A DNA stretch of 64,000 nucleotides, taken from positions 4,960,001-5,024,000 of the forward strand of contig NZ_CP054139.1 of NCBI RefSeq assembly GCF_013283875.1. The letters run 5' to 3'. The DNA comes from Mucilaginibacter mali (GTDB lineage Bacteria > Bacteroidota > Bacteroidia > Sphingobacteriales > Sphingobacteriaceae). The position numbers were made by a program, and so were the translations under genes. A model generated the notes under the pieces. It worked only from the letters and a program-made list of their open reading frames with translations, was not told the origin of the DNA and made no database searches. Positions 56,180 to 62,942 of the stretch are shown here, in pieces. The stretch's first letter is position 1. Each line of letters starts with the position of its first letter.

Positions 56180-56850
56180 GTCATTCTGGAGCGACAGCGA
56201 AGAATCCCCGATAAGCAGGGCGGATATGCACAGTTTTGGATCTTTCGCTATTGATCAGGATGACGGCTTTCCTTTTCCAATATCTTTATATACCGATAAG
56301 CCAACCCCAACGGAATTATCCCTCCCACCCCGAACGAACAATCTATCAACCGCCAAAATACCGGGATCTGCCGGATAGGCCCCGCGATAAATGCCAGCGG
56401 AACGATAGCCACGCAGGCGATCATACCAAACTGTATTACCCAAATGTTCTTCACCGGGTCTTTCAACGGACCAATGAATACGATCGCTAACATCACATGC
56501 GCGAATGCCAGCCAGTCGGTGCCATAACTTAGGTAAGGATAGTGCTGATTAACCACGTGCAGGATGTTGTAGATCTGTGTTATCCATTGTTGCAATACAG
56601 TGGGGGCCCAAGTTAAATGGTCTTTTATCCAGCCCAGTTCGGTTTCCAGCGGAAAAGCGGTGATACCGCTTAAGGCAAGCCCGGCGATGACGATCCAGAT
56701 GCATATCCGGATGCGATGTTGTAGTTGGGGTGTGGTTAGGGTTTTCATGGTTGTTTACTTTAATGCGTCATGGGTAGCGATAGCGAAACATCCAAAACTG
56801 TGCATATCCGCCCTGCTTATCGGGGATTCTTCGCTATCGCTCACAATGAC
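56180..56850. repeat. ~71-bp inverted repeats flanking one membrane-protein gene
   Basis: The left copy 56180-56251 and the right copy 56780-56850 are reverse complements with only about four differences. Both contain GTCATT, GCGAAGAATCCCCGATAAGC and GGCGGATATGCACAGTTTTGG. The enclosed gene stops 3-4 bp inside the left copy. Such matching outer repeats make the unit look like a small mobile module, but no transposase is present. Confidence 0.75.
56248..56748 (-). CDS. Four-helix membrane protein of unknown function
   Basis: A 166-residue integral membrane protein with hydrophobic stretches near 12-32 (ICIWIVIAGLALSGITAF), 80-95, 103-125 and 135-152. There is a motif YLSYGTDWLAFAHVMLAIVFIGPLKDPVKNIWVIQFG with a His that could bind a ligand. 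No family recognised. It is enclosed by ~71-bp inverted repeats and its last residues (ESRHPDQ) come from the left one. The nearby SRPBCC operon is separate (112 bp gap plus repeat). Confidence 0.75.
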   Translation of the reverse strand: MKTLTTPQLQHRIRICIWIVIAGLALSGITAFPLETELGWIKDHLTWAPTVLQQWITQIYNILHVVNQHYPYLSYGTDWLAFAHVMLAIVFIGPLKDPVKNIWVIQFGMIACVAIVPLAFIAGPIRQIPVFWRLIDCSFGVGGIIPLGLAYRYIKILEKESRHPDQ

Positions 56851-56859
56851 GGTGTTAGT

Positions 56860-57318
56860 TTATATTGCATTTGCCTCCGCCGCGGCCCGGATCTCCTCGT
56901 TACGCATTAACAGCAACCGCGATAAATAACCGCGCATCAGCAAGCTATCTACAAATCGCCCCAGCACACCCAACGGCGATTCAAACTCGAAGTAATCGCT
57001 CATCAGCGTATAATCGCCTATTTGTTGAAAAGTGTGCTGATGCTTCAGGGTTTTGAACGGACCCTTCACCTGCTCGTCGGTAAAGGAGGTAGCGTAGCGC
57101 AACTCGGTGATCTTGCTGGTCATTTGCATAGTGATGCCGAAGTGCCTGCCCTGCCAGGTAACGGTTTCGTCGAGACCGATGAGACCATCGGTTGTCCCGG
57201 CTACAGCTTTTTCGCCGGTATGCTGCATCGATTGCTTGTGCAGATCTATGCTGCGGGCCAAATCGAAACATACCTGTACCGGGGCTTTTATTTTGGTAAT
57301 GAGTTTAATGAGTGTCAT
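56860..57318 (-). CDS. SRPBCC-family ligand-binding protein, last gene of GbsR operon
   Basis: A 152-residue START/SRPBCC-fold protein: MTLIKLITKIKAPVQVCFDLARSIDLHKQSM at the start, GLDETVTWQGRHFGITMQMTSKITEL and a final long helix GRFVDSLLMRGYLSRLLLMRNEEIRAAAE. Proteins of this pattern (annotated as cell-division inhibitor-like or 'SRPBCC') bind hydrophobic molecules. It starts 4 bp inside the preceding gene (ATGA). It is the sixth and final gene of the module from 61017. Confidence 0.85.
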   Translation of the reverse strand: MTLIKLITKIKAPVQVCFDLARSIDLHKQSMQHTGEKAVAGTTDGLIGLDETVTWQGRHFGITMQMTSKITELRYATSFTDEQVKGPFKTLKHQHTFQQIGDYTLMSDYFEFESPLGVLGRFVDSLLMRGYLSRLLLMRNEEIRAAAEANAI

Positions 57319-58271
57319 GATCCTGTTTCGGCGCGCTGTTTAATTACCTGTAAAATATTGTTCTGGATATCGCTCATGATCCAGCCCGCCCACCACGAGG
57401 CGTAGAAGTTAAAAGTGGTGGTCAGTTTAAAATGGCTGTATAAATGCAGGCGGTACGTGCCCTTTCCTGTTTGTTGTAAAATATAGGTGCCGTTCAGTAC
57501 GTCGAAATAATCACCGCCTATGACCACATGTTTATCCATTGTGGTCGAGGGAATTTCGTAAGGGTTGGCCTTGATGGAAAAATCCATACGGCGCTGGTCT
57601 TCGTAACGCAGTACCTCTTCGTGAAACACCAGGCCCTTGTCAAATATAGCCTTGCGGTATGCGCCAACGCCATTATAATTCAGTTCGGCACGGATGGGGC
57701 GCGGGAAGCCCAGCGTGCGGGTGAGCCAGCCTTTATCCTGTTGTTGGTTGATGGCTTTTACACGCGTTACATTATCCCAGATCTGCGCCTTGTCCTTGGC
57801 TTTAATATCGATATAGGTATAAGCCTCATATCTGCCGGGAATGGCTCCTATCATATGTTCGATAGGTGACAAAAAGAGCGGCAGCAATACCAGTATGGAA
57901 ACATAGGTTTTTTCGCGGTCGTGTTTTCTGATCTTAAAATATCCGGCTGTTAAGCCCCCGGCTGTAGAAGCCAAAAGAAACAAGGGTAAAGCCATCAGGA
58001 TGCAGGCCCAGCCTTCGAACGCGAAAAGCAAAGTTGCCAGTAAGAATACCCCAACAGCAACCCAGGGTGCAAATATGCGGTAATTTAGACTCCGCACTTT
58101 TTCAATATCCGACAGATAAATCACAAGCGCCCCCACGCCAAATGGTAATCCAAATAAAAACGAGATGGACATTACGGTGTACAAATTTTCAGGCGCCGTA
58201 GTGAATAAGGTATAGATAAGGAACGCGGCAAACGCGATCAAAAATATTTTGAAGATAACAGGGCTTTTCAT
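57315..58271 (-). CDS. Membrane protein with C-terminal SRPBCC-like domain
   Basis: A 318-residue protein. About five transmembrane helices occupy residues 1-150 (including FLFGLPFGVGALVIYLSD, WACILMALPLFLLASTAGG), and a soluble domain from about 155 to 318 with IPGRYEAYTYIDIKAKDKAQIWDNVTRVKAI resembles an SRPBCC ligand-binding fold. Family name unknown to me. It is the fifth gene of the operon, 9 bp after the TIGR01777 epimerase and overlapping the next by 4 bp. Confidence 0.78.
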   Translation of the reverse strand: MKSPVIFKIFLIAFAAFLIYTLFTTAPENLYTVMSISFLFGLPFGVGALVIYLSDIEKVRSLNYRIFAPWVAVGVFLLATLLFAFEGWACILMALPLFLLASTAGGLTAGYFKIRKHDREKTYVSILVLLPLFLSPIEHMIGAIPGRYEAYTYIDIKAKDKAQIWDNVTRVKAINQQQDKGWLTRTLGFPRPIRAELNYNGVGAYRKAIFDKGLVFHEEVLRYEDQRRMDFSIKANPYEIPSTTMDKHVVIGGDYFDVLNGTYILQQTGKGTYRLHLYSHFKLTTTFNFYASWWAGWIMSDIQNNILQVIKQRAETGS

Positions 58272-58280
58272 AACAGTTTA

Positions 58281-59198
58281 TTATTTAAGGCAGTTTATAA
58301 TAGCATCCTCCACATTCGGATACCTAAATTCAAAACCCGCATCCAGCAGGCGTTGGGGCATTACCCAGCGGCTTTTTAATATCAGTTCGGTTTCGGTACC
58401 GATGATGGCGGCGCCCACTTCCAACAGCCACTTTGGGGCGGGCAAACCGATAGGCATGCCGCAGGCCTTGCGGATAACGCGCATCATGTCTGCGTTTTTA
58501 ACCGGGTTTGGTGCAACGCAGTTAAACGCGCCGTTTGCTTCGGGATTATCTAACAGCCACTCTACCGCGCGGGCCACATCCTGCTCGTATATCCAGTTTA
58601 CATATTGCTCGCCATCGCCCTGTTTGCCGCCCAAACCAAACTTTACCAAGTTATACAGGCGCGGGAATACGGCACTCTCCTTGCCCAGCACAATGCCAAT
58701 GCGCAGGGCTATTTTGCGGGTAGCCGGTAGTTCGGTCTCAAAAAATGTATGCTCCCAGGCTTTGCATACCTCAACAGAGAAGCCCTCGCCGATATCGCCG
58801 GTCAGCTCATCCTGCGGGCGGTCTTCAGCGTGGCGATAGATGGTTGCAGATGAACTGTTGATCCAAATCCTGGGCGGATTTTCCATTTCGGTCACTACCC
58901 TATTCAGCAGGGCGGTAGGGATCAGCCTTGAATCAAAGATCTCCTGCTTATTCTTTTCGGTATAGCGGCAGTTCACGTTTTTGCCACATAAATTCACCAA
59001 TAGATCGGCACCGGTTAATTGCGCCACCCAATCTCCAGCGGTTTTCCCGTCCCAAACCACCGTTTTAATATTCCCTTTAGGGGATACGGGGCGGCGGGCC
59101 AGGATGATGATCTCGGCGGCAAGTGTTTTAAAATGTTCGGCCAATACGGTGCCCAGGTAACCATTGCCGCCAGCAAGCACTATTTTTTGGTATTTCAT
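58281..59198 (-). CDS. TIGR01777-family NAD(P)-dependent epimerase (SDR39U1 type)
   Basis: A 305-residue extended SDR with the Rossmann motif VLAGGNGYLGTVLAEHF (about 6-22), LVNLCGKNVNCRY, RIWINSSSATIYRH, a C-terminal DUF1731-like segment (GLPAPKWLLEVGAAIIGTETELILKSRWVMPQRLLDAGFEFRYP). This is the family of YfcH/SDR39U1. The substrate is unknown. ATG at 59198 is used, one nucleotide after the preceding stop. It is the fourth gene of the GbsR operon. Confidence 0.9.
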   Translation of the reverse strand: MKYQKIVLAGGNGYLGTVLAEHFKTLAAEIIILARRPVSPKGNIKTVVWDGKTAGDWVAQLTGADLLVNLCGKNVNCRYTEKNKQEIFDSRLIPTALLNRVVTEMENPPRIWINSSSATIYRHAEDRPQDELTGDIGEGFSVEVCKAWEHTFFETELPATRKIALRIGIVLGKESAVFPRLYNLVKFGLGGKQGDGEQYVNWIYEQDVARAVEWLLDNPEANGAFNCVAPNPVKNADMMRVIRKACGMPIGLPAPKWLLEVGAAIIGTETELILKSRWVMPQRLLDAGFEFRYPNVEDAIINCLK

Positions 59199-59199
59199 T

Positions 59200-60018
59200 T
59201 TAGTTGAGATAAAGGATAAGGAATAAAAGCGCCACACGATACGCCATCCAGGTGACAGTGAGCAGCCAGCCTAAGCTAAGTAATTTTGTACGGCGGATGT
59301 GCTCTAAAAACATCAGCCCGGCCACTGCTAAAAACCAAAGCATATTGATAAAGGGGGCAACGGCCACAAACTTGCCAAGTAACAGCATGGGCAGCAACAA
59401 CAACGCCCCGCCAAAGGAAATGCTCATCATATTGCCCAAATAATCCCAGCGTTTGGCGGGTTTGTACAGGCTGACGATGATCCCCTGGAAAAGCACCTGT
59501 CCGCTACAGATCATATACTCGCGATAGGGTTTGCCTATAGCAACCAGCGGGCTTAAGTGACCGGCGTAATGGGTCAGGATAAAGCCAACAGTCAGGCTAG
59601 TCAAGGCCAAATAAAGCAGGCGATAGAACAAGCTGAACGTTGGCTGTATGGCGTTTTCATCAACCTTGGCCGGGATAATTACCTTACGGTTGTAAGAGAT
59701 AAAGGCGTAAACCTTGCTCATCAACCAGATGAACGGCCTGAAGCCAAACAGCGGACCGAACACCGGAAAGGCATTACCGATCACCTTAAACAAGCTTTTT
59801 ATGCCGTAATTCACCTCGCCCGTTTGGGTGTTTACCAGCGCTATTTCGTTCACCGCGCGCTGCCTGTCCACCAGTGGACAAGCGCCGGCCAGTACCTGCT
59901 GGTAAGGCGCACGACCGTTTTTATCGAGCATGCCGGTGGCTATAAAAGCGCGGCTATAGATATCGCACATGGGGCATTCGGCATCGTAAAGGATGGTGTA
60001 TCCGGCTAAAGTTTTCAT
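59200..60018 (-). CDS. DCC/DUF393 redox domain fused to a membrane region
   Basis: A 272-residue protein. The N-terminal domain (1-~120) has ILYDAECPMCDIYSRAF with a CxxC pair, the mark of the DCC1/DUF393 thiol-disulfide oxidoreductase-like family. The rest (about 130-272) contains roughly five transmembrane helices (FSLFYRLLYLALTSLTVGFIL, FGGALLLLPMLLLGKFVAV, NMLWFLAVAGLMFL). Fusion of the two parts in one gene is a notable point. Third gene of the operon. Confidence 0.82.
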   Translation of the reverse strand: MKTLAGYTILYDAECPMCDIYSRAFIATGMLDKNGRAPYQQVLAGACPLVDRQRAVNEIALVNTQTGEVNYGIKSLFKVIGNAFPVFGPLFGFRPFIWLMSKVYAFISYNRKVIIPAKVDENAIQPTFSLFYRLLYLALTSLTVGFILTHYAGHLSPLVAIGKPYREYMICSGQVLFQGIIVSLYKPAKRWDYLGNMMSISFGGALLLLPMLLLGKFVAVAPFINMLWFLAVAGLMFLEHIRRTKLLSLGWLLTVTWMAYRVALLFLILYLN

Positions 60019-60057
60019 TTTTTTTGAGGTGAAAGATGAAAGGGAAAAGGCTAAAGG

Positions 60058-60432
60058 TTATTCTGTCGCGGTGTTATTGGCTTTGTTTAACTGGGCACGG
60101 TTGCGCAGCTTAAAAAAGATGGTGAGGTTTAAAAAGTGCATAGCACCCAGTATCAGGATAATATAGCCCAGCTTGCGGCTTAATACCTCTACCACGGTTT
60201 GCAGGTTTACAATGGCATCCACCTCTTTTAAGGCCAAACTCATGTAGCCAATGTTTACCAGGTAGAAGCCAACCACCAGCAGCTTGTTTACAGAGTCGGC
60301 CAGGGGTGTATTGCCATGGAAGATATCCACCAAAAATATGCGGCCGTTGTTAAACAAAACCCGGGCAACCCAAACGGTTAGGGCAATGCTGATCATCAAA
60401 TAAAACGCGTAGGTTAAAATGAAGTAGTTCAT
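60058..60432 (-). CDS. Small membrane protein, second gene of GbsR operon
   Basis: A 124-residue protein with about three transmembrane helices: MNYFILTYAFYLMISIALTVWVARVLF, VNKLLVVGFYLVNIGYMSLAL and KLGYIILILGAMHFLNLTIFF, with the motif NNGRIFLVDIFHGNTPLADSVN between the first two. No known family. A copy of the presumed GbsR operator lies 43-62 bp upstream of its start, so it may head a second transcript. 39 bp separate it from the DUF393 gene. Confidence 0.78.
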   Translation of the reverse strand: MNYFILTYAFYLMISIALTVWVARVLFNNGRIFLVDIFHGNTPLADSVNKLLVVGFYLVNIGYMSLALKEVDAIVNLQTVVEVLSRKLGYIILILGAMHFLNLTIFFKLRNRAQLNKANNTATE

Positions 60433-60474
60433 GATGTTTGTGTTTAAGTGCATGTTATTATTGTTTATTTTGTA

Positions 60475-60494
60475 TTTTCAATAAAAATTGAAAG
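60475..60494. promoter_or_regulatory. Candidate GbsR operator, copy 2
   Basis: TTTTCAATAAAAATTGAAAG is a near palindrome. Aligned with the reverse complement of copy 1 it matches at 17 of 20 positions. It lies upstream of the second operon gene. Confidence 0.55.
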
Positions 60495-60510
60495 ATTTTG
60501 ATAAATTTTT

Positions 60511-61017
60511 TTATTTAAACATTTTAAAGATAGAACCCCAAAACCAGTTCTCTTCTGCTTTCAGCATGGTCTCTAAAGTACGGTTCACGTTTTTGGCCAA
60601 TTTGTTAATATCCGTTACCGATGTATTAAAGGTTTTATAGTCCGGGTCTTTCATATCGCCCTTTACGGTTTGCAGTTCGTTCAATAATTTAATAATGGGA
60701 TCCAGCTCACGCTTTTTGCGTTCCTGCGCTACCTGACGGGCAATAGCCCAGGTATCCTTATCGGCAAAAAAGTATTCCTTGCGTTCGCCGGCACGGTGCT
60801 GTTTTTCTATCAGGCCCCAGCTGATCAGGTCGCGCAAGGTCATGTTGGCATTACCGCGGGAGATCTTCAGCTGCTCCATAATTTCTTCGGTGGTCAGCGC
60901 TTCGGGACTGATCAGCAGCAGGGCGTGTACCTGGGCCATGGTGCGGTTAATGCCCCACTCGCTCCCCAGTTTGCCCCAGGCTTCAATAAACTTCAACTTT
61001 GCTTCTGCCAGTTCCAT
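60511..61017 (-). CDS. GbsR/MarR-family transcriptional regulator
   Basis: A 168-residue winged-helix repressor-like protein: KFIEAWGKLGSEWGINRTMAQVHALLLIS, TEEIMEQLKISRGNANMTLRDLISWGLI (helix-turn-helix) and the wing HRAGERKEYFFADKD, then a C-terminal helical region. GbsR proteins control osmoprotectant genes in Bacillus; related Bacteroidota regulators control other operons. It is the first gene of the six-gene module and has a palindrome over its own -33 element, consistent with autoregulation. Confidence 0.9.
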   Translation of the reverse strand: MELAEAKLKFIEAWGKLGSEWGINRTMAQVHALLLISPEALTTEEIMEQLKISRGNANMTLRDLISWGLIEKQHRAGERKEYFFADKDTWAIARQVAQERKKRELDPIIKLLNELQTVKGDMKDPDYKTFNTSVTDINKLAKNVNRTLETMLKAEENWFWGSIFKMFK

Positions 61018-61021
61018 AGAA

Positions 61022-61051
61022 CAAATGTAAATACTATTTTTAAACTTTCAA
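61022..61051 (-). promoter_or_regulatory. Promoter of the GbsR operon
   Basis: On the minus strand: TTG at 61051-61049, 19-nt spacer, TACATTTG at 61029-61022, start codon 4 nt beyond. The operator palindrome (61045-61064) covers the TTG. Confidence 0.75.
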
Positions 61052-61064
61052 AATTTATTGAAAG
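61045..61064. promoter_or_regulatory. Candidate GbsR operator, copy 1
   Basis: CTTTCAAAATTTATTGAAAG reads as an imperfect palindrome (ACTTTCAA/TTGAAAGT arms). It overlaps the -33 box of the GbsR gene, as expected for repression. It also lies between this gene and the divergent deacetylase gene and could affect both. Confidence 0.65.
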
Positions 61065-61207: not shown

Positions 61208-62200
61208 ATGAAGTCGTCTATAAGATATATTATACTTTTCCTGCTGCTTTCTAACGCCTGCTTAGTACGGGCGCAGGCGGCTTATCACCATATTAAAAAC
61301 TATAAAGCTTATTACGGCTGGGCGCATGCCTATCCGCAGGATAAAATGGTTTTGCGCCGCTTTGAGGACGGCAACAAAACTTACTACCTGCTGGTAAACC
61401 CGCTAACGATGGAGACCGAGGTGAACGACAGCGACATCTATAAAATAAAACCGATGAACATAGCCGAAGCCCGCGCCTTTTTTAAAAGCACGCCCTATCA
61501 AAAAGCTTTAGCCAAGGCCGAAAAGCAATCGGTAATGATACAGGACGCGGGCATTGAGCGGGGCATGCCTAAAGAGGCGGGCATCAGCTTAACAGCCGAC
61601 CTATGTCCATCGCACCGGCCGCTGGATAAGGTGATATTTACCGATATTTTTAACGGGTTGGGCAAGGTGGAGCGGCCTGTGCCTATAGCCCTTTCGGTAA
61701 CCGGCGTCTGGATGCGCCAGCACCCGCAGGACCTGGAATGGCTAAAACAAATGGAAGCCAAACGCGAGATCTATATCACCTGGATCAACCACTCGTACAA
61801 CCACCGGGTAAGCGCCAGTCGCCCGCTGAAGGAAAATTTTTTGCTGGAACCCGGCACCGATATGAGCTACGAAGTACTGGAAACCGAACAGGCCATGCTG
61901 CGCAACGGGTTGCTGCCCTCGGTGTTTTTCCGTTTCCCCGGCCTGGTATCCGACCAGCAACTGGTGAACCGCGTAACCGATTTCGGCCTCATTCCTATCG
62001 GTACCGATGCCTGGCTGGCCAAGGGACAACAACCCCAGGCCGGCAGCATTGTGCTGATACATGGCAATGGCAATGAGCCGGTAGGCGTAAAGGATTTTAT
62101 TAAGCTGCTACAATCAAAAACGCAGGCCATAGCCAATAAGCAATGGCTGCTTTATGATTTGCGGGAGAGTGTGGATGAGGAGTTTGGGGAGGTGAGGTAG
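61208..62200 (+). CDS. Polysaccharide-deacetylase-like secreted protein
   Basis: A 330-residue protein with a signal peptide (MKSSIRYIILFLLLSNACLVRAQA). The NodB-fold motifs are present though degenerate: SLTADLCPSHRP (first Asp), WINHSYNHRVS (HxxxH, metal ligands), FFRFPG and GSIVLIHGNGNE. NodB-family enzymes remove acetyl groups from chitin, peptidoglycan or xylan. Here the motif 1 differs from the usual TFDDG, so activity and substrate are uncertain. It is divergent from the GbsR gene. Confidence 0.82.
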   Translation: MKSSIRYIILFLLLSNACLVRAQAAYHHIKNYKAYYGWAHAYPQDKMVLRRFEDGNKTYYLLVNPLTMETEVNDSDIYKIKPMNIAEARAFFKSTPYQKALAKAEKQSVMIQDAGIERGMPKEAGISLTADLCPSHRPLDKVIFTDIFNGLGKVERPVPIALSVTGVWMRQHPQDLEWLKQMEAKREIYITWINHSYNHRVSASRPLKENFLLEPGTDMSYEVLETEQAMLRNGLLPSVFFRFPGLVSDQQLVNRVTDFGLIPIGTDAWLAKGQQPQAGSIVLIHGNGNEPVGVKDFIKLLQSKTQAIANKQWLLYDLRESVDEEFGEVR

Positions 62201-62273: not shown

Positions 62274-62942
62274 ATGAAACCTTCATTTTGTGTTTATTTG
62301 ATTGTATTTTACTTATTTGTTAATGCATGTAGCAATCCTCAATCGCATTCCGGTATAAGTCAAGCTAAAAAAGCACCGGCAACAAAAGTCGATACCACTA
62401 AATCTTTTAAAATAGCAAATACCTGGGTAACTCCGAAACCCTCGCTTGATTTTAACGCCCTTAATAAATTTGCAGGCGACACACTTGATTTGGTAGTTTG
62501 CGGGAAGTACGTTTATGAACCTTTTGGCGGCATTAAAAGCAAAAAGGATTTTAAATCAAGCCTATTGAGCAGTTTTTTGGTGATTAATAGAATGGAAAGA
62601 GAAGATTCGGGCACATTCGAATTTAATAGCCTGCGACACAACAAGAGTAAACTGCTCTTCTTTTTTGATACAGATCCCGAGGCATCAGCGCATTCATCTG
62701 TTTTTAAAGGAGAAATATACGATGCGGATGTGCATTTTGTAAACGGGATAAAAATCGGAATGCCTACTGCGAATTTCTATAATACATTATTTGATTATTT
62801 TCCAGTTGAATTGATCTCAAATTACCACGTTGTTGTTCTTGAATCGTGTGTTCAGGATATCATTCATACCTATACTTTTAAAAACGGGAAATTAGAATCG
62901 GTAAAGTTTGCTAATGATAGTTATTGGAAGGTGGATTATTAA
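62274..62942 (+). CDS. Lipoprotein of unknown function
   Basis: A 222-residue lipoprotein: MKPSFCVYLIVFYLFVNACSN with lipobox FVNAC (Cys19). The mature part has KIANTWVTPKPSLDFNALNKFAGDTLDLVVCGKYVYEPFGGIKS and IYDADVHFVNGIKIGMPTANFYNTLFDYFP, without a known motif. It is AT-richer than nearby genes. Its promoter (-7 box at 62249) suggests single-gene transcription. Confidence 0.75.
   Translation: MKPSFCVYLIVFYLFVNACSNPQSHSGISQAKKAPATKVDTTKSFKIANTWVTPKPSLDFNALNKFAGDTLDLVVCGKYVYEPFGGIKSKKDFKSSLLSSFLVINRMEREDSGTFEFNSLRHNKSKLLFFFDTDPEASAHSSVFKGEIYDADVHFVNGIKIGMPTANFYNTLFDYFPVELISNYHVVVLESCVQDIIHTYTFKNGKLESVKFANDSYWKVDY

Follow-up and report, generated by a model that had tools for sequence, protein, structure and literature searches.

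Introduction

GbsR and OpuAR of Bacillus are transcriptional regulators of a MarR-type family for whose models MJ223 (1ku9) served as the template; they have a site at their own promoter, and osmoprotectant genes accompany them. In the cited passages of a 2018 survey of the family, 73 of the 179 surveyed GbsR genes, mainly from Euryarchaeota and Bacteroidetes, were left without a deduced function, and no consistent gene context was reached for the Bacteroidetes members (PMC6207618). Here we describe a regulator of this family from Mucilaginibacter mali, a soil-type bacterium, encoded in a stretch of 64,000 nucleotides (NZ_CP054139.1, positions 4,960,001-5,024,000; assembly GCF_013283875.1, a genome of 6.04 Mb in a single contig), referred to below as the window. 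Like GbsR and OpuAR it belongs to the MJ223-like group and has a site at its own promoter, whereas the genes behind it form a module of membrane and lipid-type families. With a probability of about 0.6, the locus is a self-contained, locally GbsR-repressed regulon for a pathway that modifies envelope lipids or isoprenoid lipids.

Other described regulators resemble the M. mali protein in part. CydE, of the same GbsR family, governs a membrane redox function by repressing the cytochrome bd genes, although its inducer is reportedly sulfate (cited passages of PMC6207618) and no cytochrome bd family was found among the proteins scanned. CrtR of Corynebacterium glutamicum is a self-repressing MarR-type regulator that acts at the promoter of an operon of lipid type and is released by metabolites of the pathway, isoprenoid pyrophosphates (PMC5401885, in the part cited). 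It would be the nearest working analogue of the M. mali regulator, a likeness in the mode of action; CrtR controls carotenoid genes, none of which was seen in the module. Finally, the cited passages of papers on LitR and on the blue-light response of Vibrio name photolyases, a short-chain dehydrogenase/reductase (SDR) and lipid enzymes (PMC9758184, PMC5241685).

Gene content and conservation of the module

Six open reading frames (ORFs), all on the minus strand, occupy positions 56860-61017 of the window. They encode, in order, a GbsR/MarR-type regulator of 168 residues without a cysteine (60511..61017), a small membrane protein of 131 residues (60058..60453; 124 residues from the ATG at 60432), a 272-residue fusion of a DCC-like thioredoxin-fold domain with a helical membrane domain (59200..60018), a TIGR01777 oxidoreductase of the SDR type with 305 residues (58281..59198), a 318-residue protein with membrane helices and an SRPBCC domain (57315..58271) and an SRPBCC protein of 152 residues (56860..57318). 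Counted from gbsR, the intergenic gaps are 78, 39, 1, 9 and -4 bp, as a previous sequence-only reading had reported; the first value takes the second ATG (60432), used by most aligned relatives of the protein, as the start of the 131-residue gene, while the longest ORF of this gene (60453) gives 57 bp.

The DCC protein had 116 relatives in a scan with one genome per species, the nearest named ones in Mucilaginibacter and Pedobacter, and the best 80 loci (L009-L088) were kept; they were picked for the DCC gene, so its frequency among them is uninformative. By tblastn, the regulator was present in 75 of these 80 loci and the TIGR01777 gene in 78, and gbsR, the DCC gene and the TIGR01777 gene occurred together on the same strand in 73. 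The remaining genes were less frequent, with the 152-residue SRPBCC gene in 45 loci, the 131-residue gene in 20 and the 318-residue gene in 13. The order of a module of membrane and lipid-type families headed by a GbsR-type regulator thus recurs in many genomes, contrary to the outcome, conservation in none, that had been named as fatal to the proposal. Of 296 genomes drawn evenly from the Bacteroidota, 21 contained the DCC gene, and all 21 had a GbsR match, compared to 93 of the 296 overall; the two genes lay at most about 7 kb apart in 19 of the 21. GbsR surroundings were retrieved for 70 of the 93 GbsR genomes, and 13 of the 20 retrieved loci without a DCC gene had at least one other module family. 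Distances among the module proteins were correlated (Mantel r 0.87-0.90), which may only mirror shared descent. Judged by this recurrence of gene order, which exceeds chance, the module is a conserved unit.

A seventh gene, encoding a membrane protein of 166 residues (56248..56748, minus strand), is recurrent in module loci and belongs to the module as an additional member. It was detected in 15 of the 80 DCC-selected loci. Among 115 distinct module-type gbsR loci, a set in which four duplicate regulator pairs were merged and from which L235-L249, of the sister and remote types, were excluded, 18 have it on the module strand. Loci of the Chryseobacterium type carry extra genes on the same strand, for a DUF2071 protein, for small membrane proteins and as tandem copies of the 131-residue gene, and in eight of them a fatty-acid desaturase gene is present (FA_desaturase, 65.2 bits over 29.7).

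Probable operator and promoter layout

At the promoter of gbsR stands the palindrome TTTCAA-N6-TTGAAA (operator 1, 61046..61063), and a second palindrome precedes the 131-residue gene without a clear -7 box (operator 2, 60476..60493); neither site is assigned a strand, and neither figured in the sequence-only reading. Upstream of gbsR, 11-12 of the 12 arm bases were found in 112 of the 115 distinct module-type loci, with 93 exact copies and 19 in which one arm base was changed. Before merging of duplicates, 80 of 97 loci had the exact palindrome close to gbsR, compared to 0.005 expected from shuffles.

Promoters of Bacteroidota have TAnnTTTG as the -7 box and TTG as the -33 element. TAnnTTTG was present 15-17 bp downstream of the palindrome in 103 of the 112 loci, whereas in shuffled sequence (unmerged loci) it appeared anywhere within 60 bp in 4%. 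In M. mali, the candidate -7 box TACATTTG (61022..61029, minus strand) stands 16 bp from operator 1 and is separated from the start codon (ATG) of gbsR by 4 bp, a spacing suggestive of a leaderless message. With these consensus elements taken as the -7 box and the -33 element, the right arm of the palindrome would cover the -33 element, as in a repressor layout. Most relatives have the palindrome at gbsR only. Given the internal palindrome before the 131-residue gene, a single operon is uncertain, and the regulator and the downstream genes may be under separate control instead of forming one simple operon.

On the opposite side of gbsR, two ORFs of the plus strand are without a Pfam match: a divergent one of 330 residues (61208-62200), whose N-terminus is hydrophobic, and one of 222 residues (62274-62942), which starts like a lipoprotein and has no match in NCBIfam either.

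Extent of the proposed regulon

When the M. mali genome was scanned with the operator and its flanks, the only site with no mismatch was that at gbsR and the only one with a single mismatch was at 3073300; two mismatches were found before the 131-residue gene and at 3868129. About 25 bp separate the end of the site at 3073300 from a gene for a membrane protein of 143 residues, which is followed by an MBOAT_2 gene (3.07 Mb; PF13813, 43.3 against a threshold of 25). This pair of genes is found inside the operon in three of the four relatives that have it, between the TIGR01777 and SRPBCC genes in G011 and G025 and after the SRPBCC gene plus one more gene in G004. Therefore, the blind operator scan recovered genes that are part of the operon itself in some relatives. 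Together with the conservation of the palindrome, this site indicates that TTTCAA-N6-TTGAAA is very likely a genuine operator and that the MBOAT_2 acyltransferase is part of the GbsR regulon, by predicted binding.

In 15 chosen genomes, the strict pattern was found at 14 places in 11 genomes, 13 of them belonging to module loci and the last to the MBOAT_2 pair of M. mali, while the reversed pattern used as a control gave none; the other four genomes had no strict site. Genome G014 has gbsR on one contig and the DCC-TIGR01777 pair on another, each with an operator site. As strict sites are few and the M. mali genome contains a single match to the regulator profile, the regulator looks local and not global. 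Allowing two mismatches in 23 genomes gave many extra places outside the module, and the forward-strand control also matched in 9 of the 23 (none in 14). Two further M. mali sites were set aside: 3868129, dropped as probable chance because the ORF list shows no gene start close behind it, and 1524623 (three mismatches), with no ORF of at least 100 residues starting just behind it.

Families of the encoded proteins

The regulator matched MarR_2 with 33.4 bits (cut-off 27) and the NCBIfam model CudC with an E-value of 8.3e-11, yet far under the CudC cut-off; its profile aligned with 1ku9 (MJ223) over positions 3-149 at 1.1e-24, which places it in the GbsR family of the MarR type. Only winged-helix-type domains scored above cut-off in a domain library scan, and no light-sensing domain did. 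A thiol switch in the regulator is disfavoured because it has no cysteine. Its C-terminus is conserved, aromatic and basic and, speculatively, might contact lipid.

Membership of the GbsR family is also what speaks for an osmostress module whose regulator would sense choline or glycine betaine as GbsR and OpuAR do. This we consider hardly credible: no family for the synthesis or uptake of osmolytes was found among the scanned proteins of the module and its neighbourhood, on which ground the osmoprotectant reading was rejected, and GbsR groups unrelated to osmostress differ at the cage according to the cited passages of PMC6207618.

A role in light or photo-oxidative stress, in which the module would be the GbsR counterpart of the LitR regulons, had been put forward in the sequence-only reading on the ground that TIGR01777, DCC and SRPBCC families recur there. 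The LitR regulons do include SDR and fatty-acid modifying genes near photolyase (PMC9758184, cited passages), and in M. mali a TIGR01777 paralogue, not the module copy, overlaps the start of a photolyase gene (L120:3943-6160, near 3.78 Mb); a strict palindrome also precedes a rhodopsin gene in G335. However, this recurrence was not confirmed, none of the three families being named in the cited passages on LitR and ChrR, PMC9758184 and PMC5241685 among them. The M. mali regulator is of the MarR/GbsR type and not a MerR-type LitR, and the module contains no photolyase, both as noticed before; a homologue of the M. mali photolyase was found in one of the 143 loci examined. With neither a cysteine nor any domain other than winged-helix types above cut-off in the regulator, a light or oxidative-stress module is very unlikely.

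Among the enzymes, the TIGR01777 protein matched its model along its full length (259.3 bits, cut-off 207.35, positions 1-292 of 292), with 3oh8 and 4b4o as the nearest solved chains. It is comparable in this to YfcH, SDR39U1 and ThyD-like proteins, with the difference that it is one of two paralogues above cut-off in the M. mali genome. The 152-residue protein is an SRPBCC member by PF03364 (25.9, threshold 23.4); a search of solved structures with the SRPBCC alignment gave no match at E 0.1. In the 318-residue protein, residues 144-318 are modelled as an SRPBCC fold (mean predicted local distance difference test, pLDDT, 71.1, from 14 sequences), and the model superimposes on 4xrw with Z 14.5 and a root-mean-square deviation of 3.2 over 145 aligned residues; the sequence has no SRPBCC match of its own, and the protein of a relative matches below threshold.

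The DCC protein scored 23.0 against DCC1-like PF04134, under the gathering threshold of 27.8, and is therefore named DCC-like only. The motif D-x2-C-x2-C, which we take to be the hallmark of the DCC1-like family, is invariant in all 26 aligned rows. Its model (pLDDT 82.6) had no Foldseek match at E ≤ 0.001; VIA Z was at most 6.8, and the matches of the membrane half to unrelated helical proteins are uninformative. The 131-residue protein had no Pfam match at E 1.

A sister GbsR subfamily and the menaquinone genes

In the 296 Bacteroidota genomes, the strict operator was found at 21 sites, one per genome, compared to none for the control. Eleven were directly upstream of a module-type gbsR and six at the gene of a chorismate-binding enzyme; of the other four, three were at genes for a rhodopsin, a polyprenyl synthetase and an aldehyde-dehydrogenase-like protein, and one, which may be chance, falls within an ORF of G196, a genome for which no GbsR match is listed. 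The chorismate-binding enzyme is isochorismate synthase, whose gene in G319 heads a menF-menD-menH-menB operon (L268:6003-10829).

The menF gene was searched for in 30 chosen genomes, of which 26 matched at E 1e-30 and were all scored. The exact palindrome was found at menF in all 18 genomes of families f23 and f42 (L268, L270-L284, L286, L287 and L289 among the loci), from 52 bp before to 6 bp after the start of the longest ORF, and in neither of the two f21 genomes nor any of the six others. The GbsR protein of these 18 genomes has the recognition segment ISRGNANMNL[RH], compared to ISRGNANMTLR in the window regulator, and its gene lies with a yraN-like gene and no module family within about 5 kb. 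In G325 and G181 (L220, L221) the operator precedes a gbsR gene followed directly by dxs, an isoprenoid-precursor gene. A strict scan of the 30 genomes gave 26 places in 23 genomes, with 17 at menF, two at gbsR-dxs, one each at the rhodopsin, polyprenyl synthetase and aldehyde-dehydrogenase-like genes and four (two each in G105 and G176) unassigned to a gene. The rhodopsin gene adjoins a Brp/Blh beta-carotene dioxygenase gene (G335, L267:8003-10039), the polyprenyl synthetase gene stands immediately behind its palindrome (G273, L266:8003-9051), and the aldehyde-dehydrogenase-like gene is downstream of its own (G081, L263).

These sites suggest a link between GbsR proteins of Bacteroidota and isoprenoid or quinone metabolism. 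In a more specific form, these proteins would sense the status of isoprenoid quinones and the module would modify menaquinone or a related prenyl lipid, a proposal that we regard as possible though doubtful. The menF palindrome shared by all 18 genomes of f23 and f42, the near-identity of the two recognition segments, the menFDHB operon, the gbsR-dxs pairs, the single sites at the polyprenyl synthetase and rhodopsin genes and the repression of cytochrome bd by CydE, of the same family (PMC6207618, cited passages), all favour it. Against this, only motif and helix speak for binding of the regulator at menF, most sister gbsR genes (9 of 11 counted) are themselves without a palindrome, the f21 genome checked has the segment ISRGNANMNVR, nearly the same, yet no palindrome at menF, and in M. 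mali the strict sites are only at the module and the MBOAT_2 pair. Still more tentative is the extended proposal that Bacteroidota GbsR proteins are sensors of menaquinone metabolism that share TTTCAA-N6-TTGAAA, controlling menFDHB in one lineage and, in that of the window, an undescribed membrane pathway of DCC, TIGR01777, SRPBCC, MBOAT_2 and desaturase proteins that would modify menaquinone, or a prenyl lipid related to it, or attach an acyl group to this substrate.

Discussion

The regulatory layout is well supported. Gene content, conservation, the palindrome, its placement and the scarcity of its sites can be read from the sequence, and a locally GbsR-repressed regulon for lipid modification appears to accommodate them. 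A GbsR-type dimer would bind TTTCAA-N6-TTGAAA in its own promoter, where the site covers the -33 element, and also occupy the site before the membrane and enzyme genes, holding them off. Its release would probably come from a small ligand, and not from light or from a thiol switch within the protein. Once induced, the proteins of the module would work at the membrane, in an order and on a substrate that we can only infer: the SRPBCC proteins may hold a hydrophobic substrate as carriers or cyclases, the TIGR01777 SDR may perform a nicotinamide-dependent step and the DCC-membrane protein a thiol/disulfide or reductive one. The MBOAT_2 acyltransferase, in trans in M. mali and in the operon in some relatives, would add an acyl group, and some lineages would add a desaturation by the fatty-acid desaturase, and a DUF2071 protein. 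Of the function proposed in the sequence-only reading, the part concerning membrane or lipid modification is partly supported, strengthened by the MBOAT_2 gene with its palindrome and by the desaturase in eight Chryseobacterium-type loci, while the light or oxidative-stress part found no support.

Several observations weigh against this regulon. The palindrome is absent in 3 of the 115 module-type gbsR loci, 7 of the 20 retrieved GbsR loci without a DCC gene show no other module gene (two at contig ends), and the gene content of the module differs between lineages. With up to three mismatches the scan of the M. mali genome gave 34 sites against 37 for the control, no better than background. 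Only 5 of the 61 genomes of the family, M. mali included, have the MBOAT_2 pair, and in G007 it stands by itself without an exact palindrome. Self-repression by a GbsR dimer would be the natural reading of the position of the site, and that position is all that speaks for it; in the DCC protein, the membrane half had no convincing solved relative. The TIGR01777, DCC and SRPBCC families, for their part, reveal little about the chemistry, for which a phospholipid, a fatty acid, a carotenoid or a quinone would be candidate substrates.

A literature search, to which most subscription journals were outside, found no title or abstract opening on a regulon of this module or on a link between GbsR and menaquinone. 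One Bacteroidetes GbsR subfamily gains a concrete putative regulon, with operator and promoter layout, and TIGR01777, DCC and DUF2071, poorly understood families, are now placed in one gene module with lipid enzymes. The sister subfamily gains a candidate target, the menaquinone operon, and the palindrome before the menaquinone genes hints at targets of the GbsR family in Bacteroidota.

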